Both the position numbers and the translations under genes were made by a program. From NCBI RefSeq assembly GCF_001619985.1, contig NW_017264197.1, forward strand, positions 1,364,001-1,428,000: DNA of 64,000 nucleotides, read 5' to 3'. This document shows, in pieces, positions 22,136 to 64,000 of this stretch; within the stretch, counting starts at the first letter, position 1, and each line of letters opens with the position of its first letter. Under the pieces are notes generated by a model, which saw only the letters and a program-made list of their open reading frames with translations, was not told the DNA's origin and ran no database searches. The DNA comes from Xylona heveae TC161 (Eukaryota > Ascomycota > Xylonomycetes > Xylonales > Xylonaceae).

Positions 22136-23989
22136 TCATTCGGCACCCTCGGACGGAGCTGGTATGCTTCCCTTTCGGGAAAGAGCGAGTGCAGCAGCAG
22201 ACCTTCCGGCTTTGCGGCCAAATACTGCTCCTGCAGTTAAGCCGCTCCCACCCGGGTAATTTTCATAGAACAATCCCCCCACCATCTCGCCGGCACAGTA
22301 AAGTCCCGGGATGTCCTTTCCTGTGACTCTAGAAAGCACTCCTGCCGTATTTGGGTTGATTGCAAGCCCACCAAATGTGAAAGTGATCCCAGCAGTCACT
22401 TTGACAGCTACGAAAGGTGGCTGATCCAAAGGTAGAGCCCAGTTGCTCTTTGGTGGATTCAGCCATCGAGAGCTTGACTGCGTAGACAGACCATCTTTGA
22501 CCGCAGGGTCCCAGTGTCGGCCGGGGTTTTCGCGCTGGCTGGCGTAGACAGCGTCGTTATATCCTTCAATGGTTCGGACAAACTGTTCTCCATCCACGAG
22601 CCCCAATGAACCACACTTTTGAGCCAATTCTTCCACACTGTCGGCATAAATCTTCCGCACGGTCTCATCTCTATACTCCTCCGGGCGGAGCCAGTCTAGA
22701 GTCTGTGCATCCCACACTTGGAACGCTATCCCATCAGGCTGGTGCAAAATTTCTTTCCCAAACTTTGCGTACGTGTAGTTTCGAAGATCCATGCCCTCGT
22801 CAACAAACCTATTGCCGTGGCTGTTTAGCATTAGTCCTAGCGGATATCCGCTCTTTGTGAACTCATTCGTTTTCTCTTGATCGCCTTCTTCGGTTGGAGC
22901 ATTTGCATCCCATGCTACGGAATGGCAGCCTGACCAATTTCCCATTTGTTTTGCATTGGCATCTCGAATCGCAATCTCCAACATTTCTCCGGTATTGTAA
23001 GGGCTTCCCCTCACATATGCCAGATCCCATCCTGGTCCAAGGTACTGCGCCCGCATTCTGGGATTGGCTTCAAAGCCACCGGCACAAAGAATAACGCTAG
23101 TGGCTCGAATTTCCTCGATAGAGCCCCCAGGCATCTGTACCAGGATACCAGTGACGCCTTTGCCTCCTTCTTCGTCAGTAACCAGCTGTGTGGCAGGAGT
23201 ATCGAATAATAGATCAACTCCTTTTGCTCTTGCAGCCGTCAGCAGGCTACCGATTAAGCCTTTGCCTCCTCCGTCGACTGTAAGTGCGAGCCCTCCCCAG
23301 AATTTCCACTTGTCTTCGATCACATATGCTTGCCTGTGGAAGCCCAGTGCGAAAGGAATGCGGGCTATCCATTTCAACCAGCTTAGAACATCCAAGCTTT
23401 CGGTGATCAATGCATCAGAGAGATGGTGATCAGTTCTGCCGGCAGTGACTCGATCAATATCCGCACGGAATTTTTCCATCGTATAAGGCTCAAGACTTAA
23501 CGATTTTTGAGCTTCATCAAACGTATGTGTCCTTTTGCCCTTGAGCGCATCATTCTCTGACAGAGGGAAATCGATGGTACCGTTATTTTCAATCAGTGGC
23601 CACAAGTCTTCGAGTCCATTATGGATTGTTCGATATGCTCCGGCGGTGAAGTAACCATTACCGCCAGCCCAGTCTGGCGGACATTTGTCAATCAGAAGCA
23701 CACGAGTGGCCCCGTGAGCGCGAGCAGACAAAGCTGCCGTGAGACCGGCAGCGCCGGAGCCAATGACAAGTACGTCGTAAGGTGACGATTTACTAATTGA
23801 TATGCGAGACTGCCTTCGGGGCTGTATTTGTGGCTCAGGCTGGATACTCTGAAGCCGCGAGTCCTTTCTCCTTGGGGCAAATGACTTGTACTGAGGATAG
23901 TGAAGTTGCGGTTTTGCGTAGAAGCTTGCACTTGAACGCCTCCGGTCTCCGGGATAGTCAGTAGGCGAAGGAGAGCTAGGCAGCTCCAT
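22136..23989 (-). CDS. FAD-dependent dehydrogenase of the fumarate reductase / tricarballylate dehydrogenase type
   Basis: Single exon, 617 residues. After a 70-residue basic, Ser/Pro/Gln-rich extension, the FAD-binding Rossmann core begins YDVLVIGSGAAGLTAALSAR with the GxGxxG at 77-82 and the acidic strand end at LLIDK. Further hallmarks of the FAD_binding_2 family are GGNGYFTAGAYR, GGLALTVDGGGKGLIGSLL, SVILCAGGFEANP and the C-terminal block NYPGGSGLTAGAVFGRKAG, closest in memory to tricarballylate dehydrogenases (TcuA). Related flavoproteins oxidise or reduce C-C bonds beside carboxylates; the real substrate is not known. The N-terminal extension is longer than in bacterial relatives and is not an obvious mitochondrial presequence. 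It is divergent from the Zn2Cys6 regulator at 24853 across 863 bp, which could reflect local control but could equally be chance. Confidence 0.9.
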   Translation of the reverse strand: MELPSSPSPTDYPGDRRRSSASFYAKPQLHYPQYKSFAPRRKDSRLQSIQPEPQIQPRRQSRISISKSSPYDVLVIGSGAAGLTAALSARAHGATRVLLIDKCPPDWAGGNGYFTAGAYRTIHNGLEDLWPLIENNGTIDFPLSENDALKGKRTHTFDEAQKSLSLEPYTMEKFRADIDRVTAGRTDHHLSDALITESLDVLSWLKWIARIPFALGFHRQAYVIEDKWKFWGGLALTVDGGGKGLIGSLLTAARAKGVDLLFDTPATQLVTDEEGGKGVTGILVQMPGGSIEEIRATSVILCAGGFEANPRMRAQYLGPGWDLAYVRGSPYNTGEMLEIAIRDANAKQMGNWSGCHSVAWDANAPTEEGDQEKTNEFTKSGYPLGLMLNSHGNRFVDEGMDLRNYTYAKFGKEILHQPDGIAFQVWDAQTLDWLRPEEYRDETVRKIYADSVEELAQKCGSLGLVDGEQFVRTIEGYNDAVYASQRENPGRHWDPAVKDGLSTQSSSRWLNPPKSNWALPLDQPPFVAVKVTAGITFTFGGLAINPNTAGVLSRVTGKDIPGLYCAGEMVGGLFYENYPGGSGLTAGAVFGRKAGRSAAALALSRKGSIPAPSEGAE

Positions 23990-24852
23990 GATGAAATTTA
24001 TGAATCTCAGAGTAAATGCAAACTTGCTTTAGCAAATGGCTTAGAAAACAAAGAAAGAAAGCAAATATTTGATATATTGCAATTGCGAGTTCCTTGCTTA
24101 ACAATTGCTTCCAAAGATATAGTGGGAATTCAAGATACAAGTTCTCGAAAGGAAATATATTTCAGTGTTTCAGACTTTGAAACAATGCGATGAAAGAACC
24201 AAATCAAATCTCTGAAACTCGTGACTGATGTGAAATAATGTGGAAAAGGGAGAATGTAAGACTTGAGGAGTGGAGACGGTAATGGGTATGGAGATCACCA
24301 CACTAGTATGGCATGCGACTTTGCGGGGTAGCCAAAGATAACGTCAGAGTCGTTTTGCTCATCTCCCAAGAGATTGTTCCAATTCTTGCACCCTAGATCT
24401 TTCATATGATAAGGACAACTGAGAGAGAGTCCAGCCTTCAAAATGACGATTGGTTCTTTTCTGCCAACTCCCAATTGACGTTGTGAAGCGTGACGGTGCC
24501 ACCCATATGAAATCCGGGGAAGGACAAATACAGTAACGTCCGGAGAATAGTTCATCCAGACGGATCAATGAGCTGCAGGAAGGAATATTATTTGTCCGAT
24601 GATTCGGCCGAGCGGCTTGGCGTGTTGACAACACTTCACTATGATAAGGGGCCACCAGTTATGCCAACAATGTTACTTTGATCTGGAGTCTCCCATTGAA
24701 TTAAAAATTTAATTATACAAGATAATTTGACAGGAGAAATTTATTCAACCCCGTCAATTTCATGGTTGTCGCTTGGGCAGCCAAGTTGAGCTTGGAGACC
24801 TGAGCGACAAAGCTTCCTCTAGCGTTACTTCCTTACGAGATTCAAACCCATA
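23990..24852. promoter_or_regulatory. Divergent promoter region between FAD dehydrogenase and Zn2Cys6 factor
   Basis: 863 bp between two start codons on opposite strands. It is AT-rich near both ends and contains no coding signature. No single operator could be picked out with confidence; paired CGG triplets expected for a Zn2Cys6 dimer were not clearly seen. Confidence 0.45.
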
Positions 24853-58100: not shown

Positions 58101-61100
58101 ACTGAGCTTGTTGCTCCCGAAGCTTTTCCTCTAGCTTTTGATTGACGGTTTTGTCAATGTTCTCCTCGACTTCTTTGACGCGGACGTTAAACTTCTGATC
58201 ATTGATCCATTCAAGCTTGGCTTGAATTTTCTGGCGCTCATCTTCGAGTTTGTTCGCACTCTCGATCTTCAATTGCTCTTCAAACTTGGCCTGCTTTGCG
58301 GCATTCTGGGCCTTTTGCTTCCGAAGCTGCTTTGCAGCATTGGCGGATTCATCGTTAAGTGCTTTCACTTGGGCATCGAAGTTTTCGTGAAGTTTTTTCA
58401 CTTGAGAGTCGAACTCGTCTTCAAGTGCTTTGGTTTTGGAGTTGAGAGTACTGTCAAAATCATCTTCGAGTGCTTTCACCTTAGCTTGATACTCCTGATC
58501 GAAGGATTCTTTGATTTTAAGCTTGAGCTTTTCGCCGTCGTCTTTCTTTTGATCCGCGTTATCCTCGCCGGACAGCTCGCGAAGCCTTTCCTCGACCTTT
58601 GAATTGACTGTATTGTCAAATTCGTCTTGTAGGCTCTTCAGACGATCGTCGAACTCTTTGTCCTGAGATTTTTTGACGTCCAGCTTAGGCTTTTCGTCGC
58701 CCTTTGGTCGATCTGCGTCATTGTCAGCAAACATTTCGAAAAGCTTTTCTTCGACCTTGGAATTGACAGTATTGTCAAATTCGTCCTGAAGCGCTTTCAG
58801 TTTAGCCTGGTATTCCCGATCGTACGACTCTTTGATTTCAAGCTTGAGGTTTTCGCCGTCGTCTTTTTTCTGATCCGCGGTATCTTCACCGAAGAGCACC
58901 TGAAGCTGTTCTTCGACCTTGGAATTGACTGTATTGTCGAATTCATTCTCAAGTGCCTTCAGCTTAGCTTGGTATTCCCGATCGTACGACTCTTTGATTT
59001 CAAGCTTCAGCTTTTCGTCGACTTTGTTTTGACCTGCATCATTTTCAGCGGTCTGTTCGCGAAGCTTTTCCTGGACTGTTGAAATGACAGCGTTGTCAAA
59101 TTCCGATTGGAGTTTCTTCAGACGATCGTCGAATGCTTGATCCTGGGACTTTTTGAGGTCGGCGTTCTCAGATTCCATTTTCTTGACGCGGTTGGCATAA
59201 GACTTTTTGAGCTCGCTCTTGATCTGTTGGCGCTCATTTTCGACTCTTTTCGCGTAATCAGCCTTCAGCTTTTCCTCAGTCTCAGATTGCTTTGTGGCAA
59301 TCTCTTCTTGGAGTTTCTTGAGGCGATCGGCATACTTCTGATCGTGGAAGTGATCCAGCTCAGCATATTTGCTTTCGAGCTCTGACATCTCAGTGGCGTG
59401 CTCAGCTTTAATCTGTTCTCGCTCTTTTCGGTTTGTCTCTTGAGCTACAGCCAGTTGGTGCTTTATTTTTTCAGCTTCCGCAATCGCAGCTTCATATTGA
59501 GCTTGGAGCTGTTCTGTCGATTCTAGCGGCTTTGCGGTGGCAAGAACCTCCTGCGCCTTCTTCTCTGCTCGTTGAGCAACTTCACTTTCGAAGTGAGCCT
59601 CTACTTGGGCTTTATAGTCGACGAACCTTTGCTGTTCTTCTTTCAGCATAGATTGGAATTGATTCTCCATTTGCGCTCGCTCGCTAGTGTATGCCTGTTC
59701 GGCTTCTTGGCTTTTCTGCCTATACACTTCAACTTCAGCGACTGCGGATTGGGCTCGAACTTCGAGTTCCTGGCGTTGAGCGGCAAATTGGTTCATTGCT
59801 GCTTCTTTTTCAGCTTGAAAAGCTTGTCTCTCCATTTGGAGCTGAGCATCCTTCTCCTTGTAAAGTCGTTCAGTTTCGACGCGACTGGCTTCTACAAGTC
59901 TTTTCAAATCCGCATCAAAATGGGGTTTAAGTTCGGCGAGAAGCTCTTCCCTGATTTTCGGGCGGGCTTGTTCGGCGCTTGCATCGTAGCGCTTCTTCTC
60001 GCGCTGGAGTTGATCGGCAATGAAAGATTTTTCGTGCTGGAGCTTCGTTGTCTCCTCTGCTCGCTCCTTCTTCTCCTTCTTAAGCTCGTCTTCCAAGACT
60101 TTGAACTCCTTTTTGAGTTCGGCGCGTGCTTTTTCGCGTACAGCTGCAGCCTCTCCTTTAACCTTGAGCTCCTTGGCTCGGAGAATTCCATCTTCGACCA
60201 ACTTGTTGATCTGCTTCTTGAAGCTTTCGCGTTCCCGTACCCATTCGAATTCTTTTGCAGCTAGCTTAGCTTCTGCTTCCTTAGCCCTGACGGGCGTGCC
60301 TTCGAAAATATCTGTGGCCTCTCCGACGCCATGGGTAGCGACTTGAGCTTTCGGCTGCTCCTTGTCTTTCGCTAGTTTTTCTGCTAGCTCACGTCGCCAT
60401 CTGTCTCTGGTGCTCTGCGGAGGTGAGTTCGGGCCCAGGACCACAAGGGTCGTATCGCTTTCCTTGACTTTGATGCTCCGAGGCTCATCTACTCGCATCT
60501 CAGGCGGAAGATTCAGGAACTGGTGAAAGGTGGGTTCTCCAAAAGCGAATCCCGGAGGGATCGTGGGATCAGGAACTTGTTCGCTGGCGTAGTTGATGGT
60601 TTGAGGTGCGTTGAATTTGAAAATGGGTTCTGGCTTCTTCGGTGCGCTGTTCACTTTGACAGGCGACCCGGCAAGCCGTGCAGCTTCCTGTGCCTCTTTT
60701 TCGAGGTCTTCTTTGCCAGAGCCGAATAATATGTTCGCGGATTGACGCTTCACACCGGTGGGGACTCTAATTGGTCTATCCTTTAGGTCCTTGAAGAATT
60801 TCTTGCCTTTGCTTGCGCTGCCGCTTATTCCTCCTTGTCCAAAAAAGTTGAAGTCGGGGTTGGCAGCCGGGGGAAGAAAAAGGGTATCCGGAAGACTGAG
60901 CGGCTGCGGCATAAACATGCTTGGAACGCCCTTGTTCGGCTTGGGAACTGAGTTGGGATCGTTCGCGAAGAGCGGAACAGATGGGATAGGTGCAGGCGCA
61001 CTGGGGGCGGCTCTGGGGGCTGCACTGGGAGTGGCAGCATTGACACTGGCCCGCGTAAGGGCGTCGAGTTCGGCTGCGGTGAGCAATGGCAGCTCCTCAA

Positions 61101-62346
61101 CAGCGAAGTTATCAATGAAATCAGGATGAGAATTGAGCCAATCGGCAAGTGAACGGCCCTTGGATTCTTCGAGAGATCCGGGTTCGGGTGAAAACTCAGC
61201 AAGGTCTTCAAAGGTATAAACTTTTCCATCATCGTCAAAATCGACGGGGCCCTCAAGAATCGGCAAGCCGTACAAATCTCTTTCGGAGTTCTGCAAATTC
61301 TGGCTACCTTCAGTAACAGGAAGGAGCACCTGATCGATTTGCTCGGTGAACGGGATCGCGGGCGAGGTCGGGCGGCTTATTGGCGGTGAAAAGTTCAAGA
61401 CGTCATCTTCACCGAAAAGCGCGAATTCGCGTTCCTCCACACATTCGGGAGTAGCGGCTGTTTGGTACGGCTCAATGGGAGCTCCATCTGCTCCGAGGAG
61501 ACCTTCGTCATCGGGATAACCAGAGTAGCCATAGCCATAGCCATACGGGGTACTCGGCACTTCATATCTACCGCCACCTGATTCCAGCAAAGGCGATTGA
61601 AGGCCTGGTGTGACTGCGGGCGGAGTACCTATGATGCGGGAACTCTTAAAAAACTCTTCGAGCTGTGCATCAGTGATTGCCATATGATCAGGTTGTCCAA
61701 GATCCAAAGCGAAAAGGGCAGGATCAATGCGGGACTCGATGGGAACTCCCTGGGCATCATAACTCGCGGGGATCGACTGTTGGTTGGCTGGAAGTCCAGT
61801 TCCCTCAGGCTCTTTGGCCTTCTCCTTGCCTTTACCAGTGGTATCGGCGGAGCCGCTGGCATCATTGACGGTCTCAGAGGGGCCCTGACCGAGAGTATTG
61901 TCACGAACATTGCCAAGGGTGACGTTGCTCTGATTGTCTGGATTGGAAATACCAATATTGACATTGCCAGTATGGACAACATTGTCGTTGCCGACCTTGC
62001 CAAGTTCAAAATTGCCTGGATTGACAAAGCCAGCATTGCTAGCGGGGGCAAAGTTGACGAGGTTGAAGCCACTGAGGGCACCTTCATTGTTTCCAGCTTG
62101 AATGGCCGGAGTCATTTCCATGTCAACGTCATTGGTATTGGCAGTGCTCGGATTGGCAAGGTTACCGCCGTTGGAAGGGCCAACGCTGGGGCTGACACGG
62201 GCTTTCATGGAGAATGGACTGTTATCCATCTCGACTTCGTTCATTTCGTTAGGAACGGGGGAGGATGGTTCGGAAATGTGGAATTCCTCGATGCCTTGCA
62301 AGATGTTCGCGGCAAATTCATCAGCGTCCATGTTCATGCTAGTCAT
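55180..62346 (-). CDS. Giant coiled-coil protein with C-terminal membrane spans, function unknown
   Basis: Single open frame of 2388 residues beginning MTSMNMDADEFAANILQGIE. Residues 1-600 are acidic, Asn/Pro/Ser-rich and disordered. About 690-2190 is almost continuous heptad coiled coil, dense in K, E, Q and L, including an internal repeat block near 1080-1305. The last 154 residues are different in kind: Trp-rich hydrophobic segments near 2241-2262 (VQLYLEFFWVLVTACLPAFF), 2272-2293 (GVIAMFAMIFGFSPLIIALA) and 2309-2326 (HLVVYLVLALWLFQW), then a basic amphipathic tail ending SRLLWA. A long rod anchored at its C-terminus fits a tether on the nuclear envelope, ER or Golgi (golgin- or spindle-pole-like), but no KASH or GRIP motif is evident. 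Its leader contains the tandem exon-intron array described separately. Confidence 0.88.
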   Translation of the reverse strand: MTSMNMDADEFAANILQGIEEFHISEPSSPVPNEMNEVEMDNSPFSMKARVSPSVGPSNGGNLANPSTANTNDVDMEMTPAIQAGNNEGALSGFNLVNFAPASNAGFVNPGNFELGKVGNDNVVHTGNVNIGISNPDNQSNVTLGNVRDNTLGQGPSETVNDASGSADTTGKGKEKAKEPEGTGLPANQQSIPASYDAQGVPIESRIDPALFALDLGQPDHMAITDAQLEEFFKSSRIIGTPPAVTPGLQSPLLESGGGRYEVPSTPYGYGYGYSGYPDDEGLLGADGAPIEPYQTAATPECVEEREFALFGEDDVLNFSPPISRPTSPAIPFTEQIDQVLLPVTEGSQNLQNSERDLYGLPILEGPVDFDDDGKVYTFEDLAEFSPEPGSLEESKGRSLADWLNSHPDFIDNFAVEELPLLTAAELDALTRASVNAATPSAAPRAAPSAPAPIPSVPLFANDPNSVPKPNKGVPSMFMPQPLSLPDTLFLPPAANPDFNFFGQGGISGSASKGKKFFKDLKDRPIRVPTGVKRQSANILFGSGKEDLEKEAQEAARLAGSPVKVNSAPKKPEPIFKFNAPQTINYASEQVPDPTIPPGFAFGEPTFHQFLNLPPEMRVDEPRSIKVKESDTTLVVLGPNSPPQSTRDRWRRELAEKLAKDKEQPKAQVATHGVGEATDIFEGTPVRAKEAEAKLAAKEFEWVRERESFKKQINKLVEDGILRAKELKVKGEAAAVREKARAELKKEFKVLEDELKKEKKERAEETTKLQHEKSFIADQLQREKKRYDASAEQARPKIREELLAELKPHFDADLKRLVEASRVETERLYKEKDAQLQMERQAFQAEKEAAMNQFAAQRQELEVRAQSAVAEVEVYRQKSQEAEQAYTSERAQMENQFQSMLKEEQQRFVDYKAQVEAHFESEVAQRAEKKAQEVLATAKPLESTEQLQAQYEAAIAEAEKIKHQLAVAQETNRKEREQIKAEHATEMSELESKYAELDHFHDQKYADRLKKLQEEIATKQSETEEKLKADYAKRVENERQQIKSELKKSYANRVKKMESENADLKKSQDQAFDDRLKKLQSEFDNAVISTVQEKLREQTAENDAGQNKVDEKLKLEIKESYDREYQAKLKALENEFDNTVNSKVEEQLQVLFGEDTADQKKDDGENLKLEIKESYDREYQAKLKALQDEFDNTVNSKVEEKLFEMFADNDADRPKGDEKPKLDVKKSQDKEFDDRLKSLQDEFDNTVNSKVEERLRELSGEDNADQKKDDGEKLKLKIKESFDQEYQAKVKALEDDFDSTLNSKTKALEDEFDSQVKKLHENFDAQVKALNDESANAAKQLRKQKAQNAAKQAKFEEQLKIESANKLEDERQKIQAKLEWINDQKFNVRVKEVEENIDKTVNQKLEEKLREQQAQFDAQQAENEKEVRLDKALQLKEERERIEADFKTKLDNESKQLEAKFSESVDQKVQEKVKERLSEIEQQRKREVKQAKETERQRSEAAKTSEKQLEKALEMLVRQQKSIEELTALYEEEADENERNETEAEEAEQQRLETAKATENQIEELHQKLAAQQQFIEETRARYEKDLEKERRERETQAKKAEQEKLESAKASQEELEGLNKKLVAQEKSNQDLKARYEEELENVRNGIDATIKEKVDEESRQMRVLYKEEHDSQIQKLSEEYDRKIATAKAEQNDPPAESIPSDIDGLEEELEAALMEDLARENVVAAAETQPSEDLPPVQVPDTITSDFEEKLEKLQKEVELMQALNETLKGDLIKEKKSIEDLEKDLTETKNSTSYSARRKLQQKYDSTAKSLDQAKSNLLQAKASEQTWKDKTASAENKVANLRRRIEEFEKDKQQRRSKQDEMAKSLENEWKAKLEEQANQHAEELDFQRRALLEEYREWEATAESKFAGKLRQKEQELAVELEAIRMAKEEVEAEKMTCESRASKLELDLKEMQVAIADNEEEILQKNSRLAELEQSSRTLQRDVTDADTANRRLLLEVKDLAAAVDTKAAQLTEERGRSNRLAECAEELTLQMAEAKSELEAAEHKCQRLEAESAETSRLRASLTDSERAVDELNEKLVKEGHEVARLHEQLSLLSEEQIVKPPRSRELLRRLAAPLERALGEDRFPQESTDSWAISPIASPEASREPSEAGDEELANLWVSNDNGETPAAPATDNLQSRSELVEELKLEREAVLEELGALEALTHSTTPATGLSSDPLNGQTDAMSTSSWRWWVQLYLEFFWVLVTACLPAFFGLTEQSVELHGGVIAMFAMIFGFSPLIIALASRVQARSHPQPMRKSLQVWHLVVYLVLALWLFQWRAAVVERRLWLEANDLTRQALLHWRYRHTAGSQTLLASTLAKVPELLTQLWFAVSRWSRLLWA
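58430..59110 (-). repeat. Internal coding repeats in the giant coiled-coil gene
   Basis: About four copies of a block of 50-60 codons, each containing a DREYQAKLKALxxEFDNTVN core, SKVEExL, and an acidic DNADQKKDDGE-like linker. Two neighbouring copies are nearly identical (ESYDREYQAKLKAL in both), so this part expanded by recent in-frame duplication that preserved the heptad phase. Confidence 0.85.
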
Positions 62347-62390
62347 TTCGAATGACGGTAAGCAAGAGCTTCTTGAATAGAGGTTCGGAT

Positions 62391-63443
62391 CTGCAGGGGT
62401 TTGTCAGCTTCGTTCTTACTTTGGACTAATGAGTTTTAGGTCTCTTACAAGCACTGTCTAAGTATGACGTGTGTGGGTGTTTCTCGAAGGAAAGGGGATT
62501 TTGAAATCTAAATGAAGTTGTCAGCTCTTTGCTCTGCGTTTTGTCAAGATCAGGAGGACTTACCGTCTCAAGAGATCACTCCGAGCTTAGCTCAAAAGCG
62601 AGATTACAGCGACGAAAAAGGAAGCTTTCGAAGCGGATGAAAAAGAGAAGATGAAGGTGCGAATGAAAAGAGGATTTTACGTCTAAATGAAATTGTCAGC
62701 TCTATGCTCCACACGTTATCGGCATTAGGGGGACTTACTGTCACAAAGGATCACTGCGAGCTAAGCTCAAGCTCGTGATCAACAACGACAAAAAGGGCAG
62801 CTTTCGAAGCCGATGAAAAGAGGAGATGGAAGTACGAATGGAGGGGAGGATTTCGAATCTGGACGAACTTGTCAGCTCTCTGCTCCACACGTTGTCAAGA
62901 TTAGGAGGACTTACCGTTACAAAGGATCACTGCGAGCTAAGCTCAAGCTCGTGATCAACAACGACAAAAAGGGCAGCTTTGGAAAGCTGATGAAAATGAG
63001 AAGATGGAGGTACGAATGAAAAGAGGATTTCGAATCTGGACGAAGTTGTCAGCTCTGTGCTACAAGCTTCATCAAGATCAGAAGGACTTACCGTCACCGG
63101 AGAATCGGTTTGAACTGAGCTCAAACGCGAGATCAACAATGACGAGAAAGACAACTTTTGAAAGCAGGTGAAGATGAGAAAGGTACGAATGGAAAGAATA
63201 TCAGCTTGAGAGCAGACAGTTACGAACGAGAAAGATCAAAGATCAACCACGGTAAAGCTGTTCCTCGCTGACGAAAAGAAAGATGTGGATGGAGAGAAGG
63301 TGGAAGAAAGAAGAAGGGAGACGAGAGAGGAAGGAGTGCTTTTGAAGGCAAAAGTGGCTGGTCTCGCTTGAGAAGGGCGTTGTCGGGGCCGACAGTGGTG
63401 AATATGAGCTCCCTGCGGAAGGAACTGGCTACTCTGGTTTTCA
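62391..63443 (-). promoter_or_regulatory. Probable multi-intron, AUG-free 5' leader of the giant coiled-coil gene
   Basis: Reading towards the start codon at 62346, predicted introns are 63091-63036, 62914-62859, 62738-62683 and 62563-62508 (each exactly 56 nt) and 62448-62391 (58 nt). Each has a GTAAG donor and a GCTGAC branch sequence, with a CAG or TAG acceptor. Exons between them would be 121, 120, 119 and 59 nt, plus a 5' exon that could reach about 63440. None of the predicted exons contains ATG on the coding strand; the only ATGs found are inside two of the introns. Exon lengths and stop codons exclude continuous coding across them. Confidence 0.65.
62496..63197 (-). repeat. Four tandem exon-intron repeat units, 175-177 bp each
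   Basis: Units begin near 62496, 62671, 62846 and 63023. They share GAGGATTTCGAATCTGGACG-like openings, a GTCAGCTCT word, a GGACTTAC splice donor (minus strand GTAAGTCC) and a GATCAACAACGACAAAAAGG-like block. The middle copies are most alike; the outer ones have drifted. Donor-to-donor spacing is 175, 176 and 177 bp. Confidence 0.88.
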
Positions 63444-64000
63444 TTTCGAGTGACGGGCTGCTCTTATTCTCCCGCATTTGAAGGGCAAGATGGCTACGAA
63501 TTCCACTCAAATTTCTAGGCAAGTTACTCCTCGATACAGGCTATCTTGCGAATATTTTATCGATCGATTTGAAGCAGAAATGATACGTTGGCAACTATTC
63601 GTCGGTAAGTGAGATGAGGGGCATCTGAGTCCGAGTTTTGGTTCGATATTGCCTAATCGGGAAATATACGTGAATGTTGCCGGTGTTGTGGTTCGCGGTG
63701 CGCTAGGCGCGCTTGACCTGCATGGCACCGGAGCTCATTCTGACTCTACGGGGCCCGTCCTTCCCGTCTAAGCGATCATGGGGCCCTATTACCCCAGCCT
63801 CTCTATTAATGAATAGGTTTTGATGTTTTGCTACGCTTACTTGATGACTGCTCACTCTCAATCACAGGTTCGAAGCTATTCTCATATCTGGTTCATCAAA
63901 GCTACCTTGCTTTAATTTCTCAATCGAAGCTACATCTCGTGGTAGACTTGTCGTCATTCTCGAGAAGGACAATGACTTAATCACTTCACCCAGTGGCTAT
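63444..64000. other. Upstream region of the giant coiled-coil gene
   Basis: 557 bp to the window edge, probably promoter. No convincing coding frame, RNA gene or repeat is visible. Confidence 0.5.

Follow-up and report, generated by a model that had tools for sequence, protein, structure and literature searches.

On the minus strand of a 64,000-nucleotide stretch of the Xylona heveae TC161 genome (hereafter the window; contig C5, positions 1364001-1428000), we found four tandem units upstream of a large coiled-coil gene, each made up of a non-coding exon and a short predicted intron (Table 1). The array is likely to represent the spliced 5' leader of this gene, enlarged by tandem duplication and freed of its introns one by one, so that this leader is very probably richer in introns than is usual. 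The repeats, the splice motifs that stayed intact against drift, the adjacency to a start codon and the lack of ATGs in the exons are directly visible in the sequence.

Table 1. Predicted features of the array and of the open frame downstream of it, in window coordinates
Feature	Coordinates	Strand	Remarks
Putative leader exon 1	63092..63280	-	~63092-63197 homologous to the repeated exon; 5' end assumed
Predicted intron 1	63036..63091	-	56 nt, GTAAGTCC...GCTGAC...CAG; ATG at 63072
Leader exon 2	62915..63035	-	121 nt, without ATG, repeat copy 2
Predicted intron 2	62859..62914	-	56 nt, without ATG
Leader exon 3	62739..62858	-	120 nt, without ATG, repeat copy 3
Predicted intron 3	62683..62738	-	56 nt, TAG acceptor; ATG at 62725
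Leader exon 4	62564..62682	-	119 nt, without ATG, repeat copy 4
Predicted intron 4	62508..62563	-	56 nt, TAG acceptor, without ATG
Leader exon 5	62449..62507	-	59 nt; first ~22 nt repeat-like, remainder unrelated
Predicted intron 5	62391..62448	-	58 nt, GTAAGAGA...GCTGAC...CAG
Leader exon 6	62347..62390	-	44 nt, ends at the start codon (ATG 62346)
Open frame, 2388 codons	55180..62346	-	ATG at 62346, stop 55182-55180; gene that the leader would serve

An earlier note on this DNA had described four repeats with minus-strand introns, and its description proved right with exact coordinates: the three longest repeat families are spaced 175-178 nt from start to start, and introns 1-4 are each predicted to be 56 nt long. 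TRF delimited the array at 62491-63097, with a period of 176, 3.4 copies and 81% matches. All four introns have the GTAAGTCC donor and GCTGAC at intron positions 39-44, with CAG as the acceptor in copies 1 and 2 and TAG in copies 3 and 4. The units are adjacent and homologous, exon together with intron, as in a tandem exon duplication. Specifically, local alignments of the pieces comprising an intron and its following exon scored 78-261 in all six pairs, against a shuffle maximum of 43 (200 shuffles each), and searches of the genome (24,276,669 bases, 17 contigs) with one unit (E <= 10) or the whole array (E <= 0.01) gave matches, counted as lower bounds, at this locus alone. The 3' half of intron 5 with the start of the next exon aligned with piece 1 (score 40 versus at most 32 in shuffles) and only just with piece 2 (31 versus 29), but did not exceed shuffles with pieces 3 and 4 (22 versus 33 and 20 versus 36), so that intron 5 is a probable, though not a certain, fifth and diverged unit of the array. 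The likeness of exon 5 to the repeat was seen in an alignment running on from intron 4, exon 5 alone not scoring above shuffles. Older copies upstream of 63198 were also sought and rejected, since copy 2 passed the shuffle maximum there (35 versus 33) but copies 1, 3 and 4 stayed below it (33/38, 38/39 and 30/42, respectively).

The copies have drifted to different degrees. Copies 2 and 3 differ at 9/119 exon and 10/56 intron positions, and copies 1 and 2 at 31/116 exon positions, in an alignment that also covers a piece of copy 1 that lies upstream and is unrelated, and again at 10/56 intron positions; realignment without that piece gave 11 exon differences for copies 2 and 3 and 24 for copies 1 and 2. 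The kinships of exons and introns thus disagree, which would fit repeated unequal exchange or conversion. The aligned introns contain no gapped columns and the exon parts several. The further proposal that intron length has been actively kept was not borne out, because the exon parts also have few gaps, making equal length weak evidence; the difference between introns and exons is too small a sample for us to claim selection on length.

Selection on splicing is suggested by the distribution of the conserved positions. In the alignment of introns 1-4, 36 of 56 columns are invariant, including all 14 canonical splice positions (GTAAGT, GCTGAC and AG) versus 22 of the 42 others (hypergeometric p = 0.00065), the latter 42 showing 24-38% divergence between copies, with a mean of 29%. 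When the splice mask was slid over the 179-column alignment, 14/14 was reached at one of 179 offsets, the true one, and 13/14 at five or more others; the mask was defined with the motifs already known, and these tests use four related copies. Since the copies share descent, they do not amount to four independent intron predictions.

We found more general support in the genome. The strict pattern GTAAGTN{20,50}GCTGACN{8,20}YAG, which allows lengths of 43-85 nt, had 108 matches in 24.28 Mb, the four array copies included, versus 40 for the reversed pattern used as control, suggesting that introns of this type probably do occur in the genome, although a control that yields 40 matches means that the pattern by itself is no proof of an intron. 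The chance rate derived from the control is ~0.0016 matches per kilobase on both strands. Among the 100 of 108 matches listed, lengths were 52-83 nt, so that 56 nt is ordinary in this genome, and the array, as read from the list, was the only place where more than two matches fell within 1 kb of the same strand; one other pair occurred within that distance (C11:908-1203). By these pattern counts, the donor, branch site and acceptor of the array resemble those of the genome's own spliceosomal GT-AG introns. The proposal of the earlier note that a leader exon was duplicated along with its intron, splice sites being kept, is well supported by the spacing, the alignments, the invariant motifs and the count of 108 versus 40. 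A wider pattern gave runs of three matches within 700 nt only in the array when applied to the surrounding 282 kb, where it had 33 matches (four of them the array) versus 25, 22, 15, 19 and 23 in five controls; the plus strand of 62300-64000 gave none. With patterns other than the strict GCTGAC one, the controls are exceeded only slightly; for example, GTAAGT with an SCTAAC branch site occurred 143 times genome-wide versus 95 in the control. A search of the 282 kb for introns bridging coding sequence found 18 candidates versus 10, 4, 12 and 8 in four scrambled controls.

Some matches elsewhere in the genome were of separate interest. The first 15 bases of an intron-like match at C6:1501265-1501335 are those of intron 4 (GTAAGTCCTCCTGAT), perhaps a shared donor context. 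In addition, three near-identical intron-like sequences lie at unlinked loci (C5:474960, C2:1218886 and C2:1247893); at two of them, a shared stretch of ~2646 nt (85% identity) indicates that the intron-like sequence there lies in a dispersed repeat, probably a mobile element, and is not an introner.

The position and composition of the array fit a 5' leader. The predicted introns lie in non-coding sequence upstream of the start codon, as 5' UTR introns do. The exonic parts (63400-62346) contain no ATG, and the two ATGs present both fall within introns (Table 1); the nearest ATG further upstream is at 63444, with none between 63092 and 63444. Among overlapping 1096-nt windows of the surrounding 282 kb, 155/56,182 on both strands, array included, had two or fewer ATGs (83/28,091 plus, 72/28,091 minus), and shuffles of the spliced leader lacked ATGs with a probability of 0.0022 (dinucleotide) or 0.0002 (mononucleotide), treating the copies as independent though they are related. 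In a drift simulation in which the copies of the repeated exon were descendants of one another, however, the absence was not significant (probability of no ATG 0.11-0.16 over four choices of ancestor), and once descent is allowed for in this way the lack of ATGs gives moderate support at best. The spliced leader is interrupted by in-frame stops, of which the last five are at codons -156, -119, -79, -73 and -43, and this speaks against an N-terminal coding extension. A CT-rich tract at ~63270-63340 is compatible with the core promoter or start region of a fungal gene.

On these sequence features, we infer that the array is transcribed and spliced. The ancestral segment may have consisted of one ATG-free exon of ~120 nt and one 56-nt GT-AG intron, and would have been multiplied in tandem through unequal crossing-over or slippage. 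Every unit would have carried the full set of splice signals, so that the pre-mRNA would lose its introns separately by intron definition, and selection on splicing would hold the motifs. The product would be a leader of ~650 nt free of upstream ATGs, if transcription starts near 63280.

By eye, the product of the 2388-codon frame appears to be long and coiled-coil-like, with a hydrophobic stretch at its C-terminus. It matched no Pfam family at E <= 0.001, and searches with residues 1-560 and 2080-2388 gave no homologue at E <= 0.001 among the 7987 and 7985 candidates scored, respectively. Even a deposited X. heveae protein did not emerge as a homologue among these candidates; the public annotation may lack the gene, split it or model it very differently, or its protein may have dropped out of the candidate lists, which were capped. 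Within its coding sequence, at 58436-59103 on the minus strand, we observed tandem repeats with periods of 162 nt (3.6 copies) and 321 nt (2.0 copies), corresponding to segments of ~54 residues. Elsewhere in the window, the best of the 120 proteins listed for the open frame at 22136-23992 on the minus strand was the FAD-binding protein of X. heveae TC161 (91%, covering 100% of the query); none of the remaining 119 exceeded 61%. Of the 617 columns of this alignment, 560 are identical, 56 fall in two gaps and one is a mismatch at a gap edge, which indicates that the DNA comes from X. heveae or an extremely close relative. The gaps are two stretches that the deposited protein lacks, 33 and 23 residues long, and that form part of the open frame in this DNA; introns may have been annotated there wrongly, or the stretches may be genuine in-frame introns.

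A position ahead of a gene would suit an untranscribed array of promoter repeats equally well, in which binding sites have been multiplied, transcription starts downstream of 62500 and the splice-like motifs are coincidental, and repeats are indeed common in promoters. This explanation is unlikely, however, given that three splice elements are kept in order, spacing and strand in 4/4 copies and that intron 5, lying between the main array and the ATG, also has a full signal set.

A leader that is spliced but regulated, with retention or skipping of individual units altering the leader and thereby tuning translation, is likewise improbable. Its appeal lies in introns 1 and 3, to which the ATGs are confined: retaining either would add an upstream ATG with a 7-codon uORF, and no uORF would be gained from introns 2, 4 or 5. 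In local folds, the donors of the same two introns are also the most strongly paired, with unpaired probabilities of the last four exon nucleotides of no more than 0.01, compared with 0.07-0.69, 0.08-0.64 and 0.05-0.76 for introns 2, 4 and 5, respectively. Nothing but this coincidence of ATG and paired donor hints at regulation, and it could be due to chance, which would pick the same two of four introns with a probability of 1/6; moreover, the GTAAGT donor is identical in all four copies. We also considered a conserved exonic hairpin ending at the donor, whose consensus fold has 93.8% of cells paired. It was rejected, as covariation did not rise above shuffles (318/500 reached the observed two-sided changes and 205/500 the covariation score) and folding strength declines from copy 1 to copy 4, the z-scores against shuffles being -3.27 for copy 1, a weak -2.07 for copy 2, and -0.77 and -0.18, no better than shuffles, for copies 3 and 4. 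As to exon skipping, suggested previously as a source of leaders of variable length, the repeated exons sit between equivalent splice sites, so that omission of a single exon would take 119-121 nt off the leader. Such an event is possible, but nothing in the sequence favours it, and intron definition is the general mode of splicing for short introns in fungi. Constitutive splicing of the duplicated leader, with at most a modest effect on expression, is the likeliest state, and the copy number is probably tolerated rather than tuned.

A more elaborate form of regulation, a graded switch in which introns of differing donor accessibility, two of them (1 and 3) with an upstream ATG, are retained to differing degrees, seems very unlikely; if it were true, copy number and splicing state would together set the amount of the coiled-coil protein, and copy number, varying between strains, would be an evolutionary dial. 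Although the exons are non-coding, it is most improbable that the array is a separate spliced non-coding RNA, such as a host for small RNAs, as no Rfam family reached its gathering score across the 64-kb window, the two sub-threshold matches at E <= 5 (20.7 of 80 and 16.3 of 64.5 bits) are both on the other strand, and 56-nt introns leave little room for a box C/D snoRNA.

Tandem exon duplication, in which an exon and its adjoining intron are copied in tandem, is a known family of events in eukaryotic genes. The tandemly duplicated leader resembles it in the exon-plus-intron unit, the similarity of neighbouring copies and the retained splice sites, but differs in that its exons are non-coding leader, present in four copies and apparently with no coding consequence. 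The term tandem exon duplication is used in PMC2432081. The array also recalls the 5' UTR introns associated with intron-mediated enhancement, in that short introns lie downstream of the presumed transcription start and ahead of the start codon. Whereas 5' UTR introns are usually one or few and unrelated, the array has five predicted introns, four of which are clear tandem copies. Fungi are named among the organisms with intron-mediated enhancement in PMC8157754. The introner-like elements of fungi (PMC4457414) are alike in providing several similar introns in one genome, but they multiply as introns into other genes, whereas the array copies the exon too and no copy was found elsewhere in the genome. 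We therefore rejected an introner-like origin, which entails unlinked similar introns with unrelated flanking exons; here, the matches found are at this locus only and the exons were co-copied. The term spliced leader, as used here, does not refer to SL trans-splicing: an SL RNA gene consists of a short leader exon plus a donor and has no acceptor of its own, whereas each unit of the array has its own branch site and acceptor. The matches listed from the open-licence PubMed Central literature included no description of a tandemly duplicated array of leader exons and introns.

The array is a real and unusual gene structure, accounted for most simply if a spliced leader segment was duplicated in tandem and its signals were kept, and by itself it shows no new mechanism. 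If spliced as predicted, it would offer four homologous introns and leader exons as a natural series, within one transcript and at different stages of drift, allowing a direct look at which leader-intron positions are kept by selection. It would also be a case in which the number of leader introns has risen by plain tandem duplication and not by the insertion of mobile introns.
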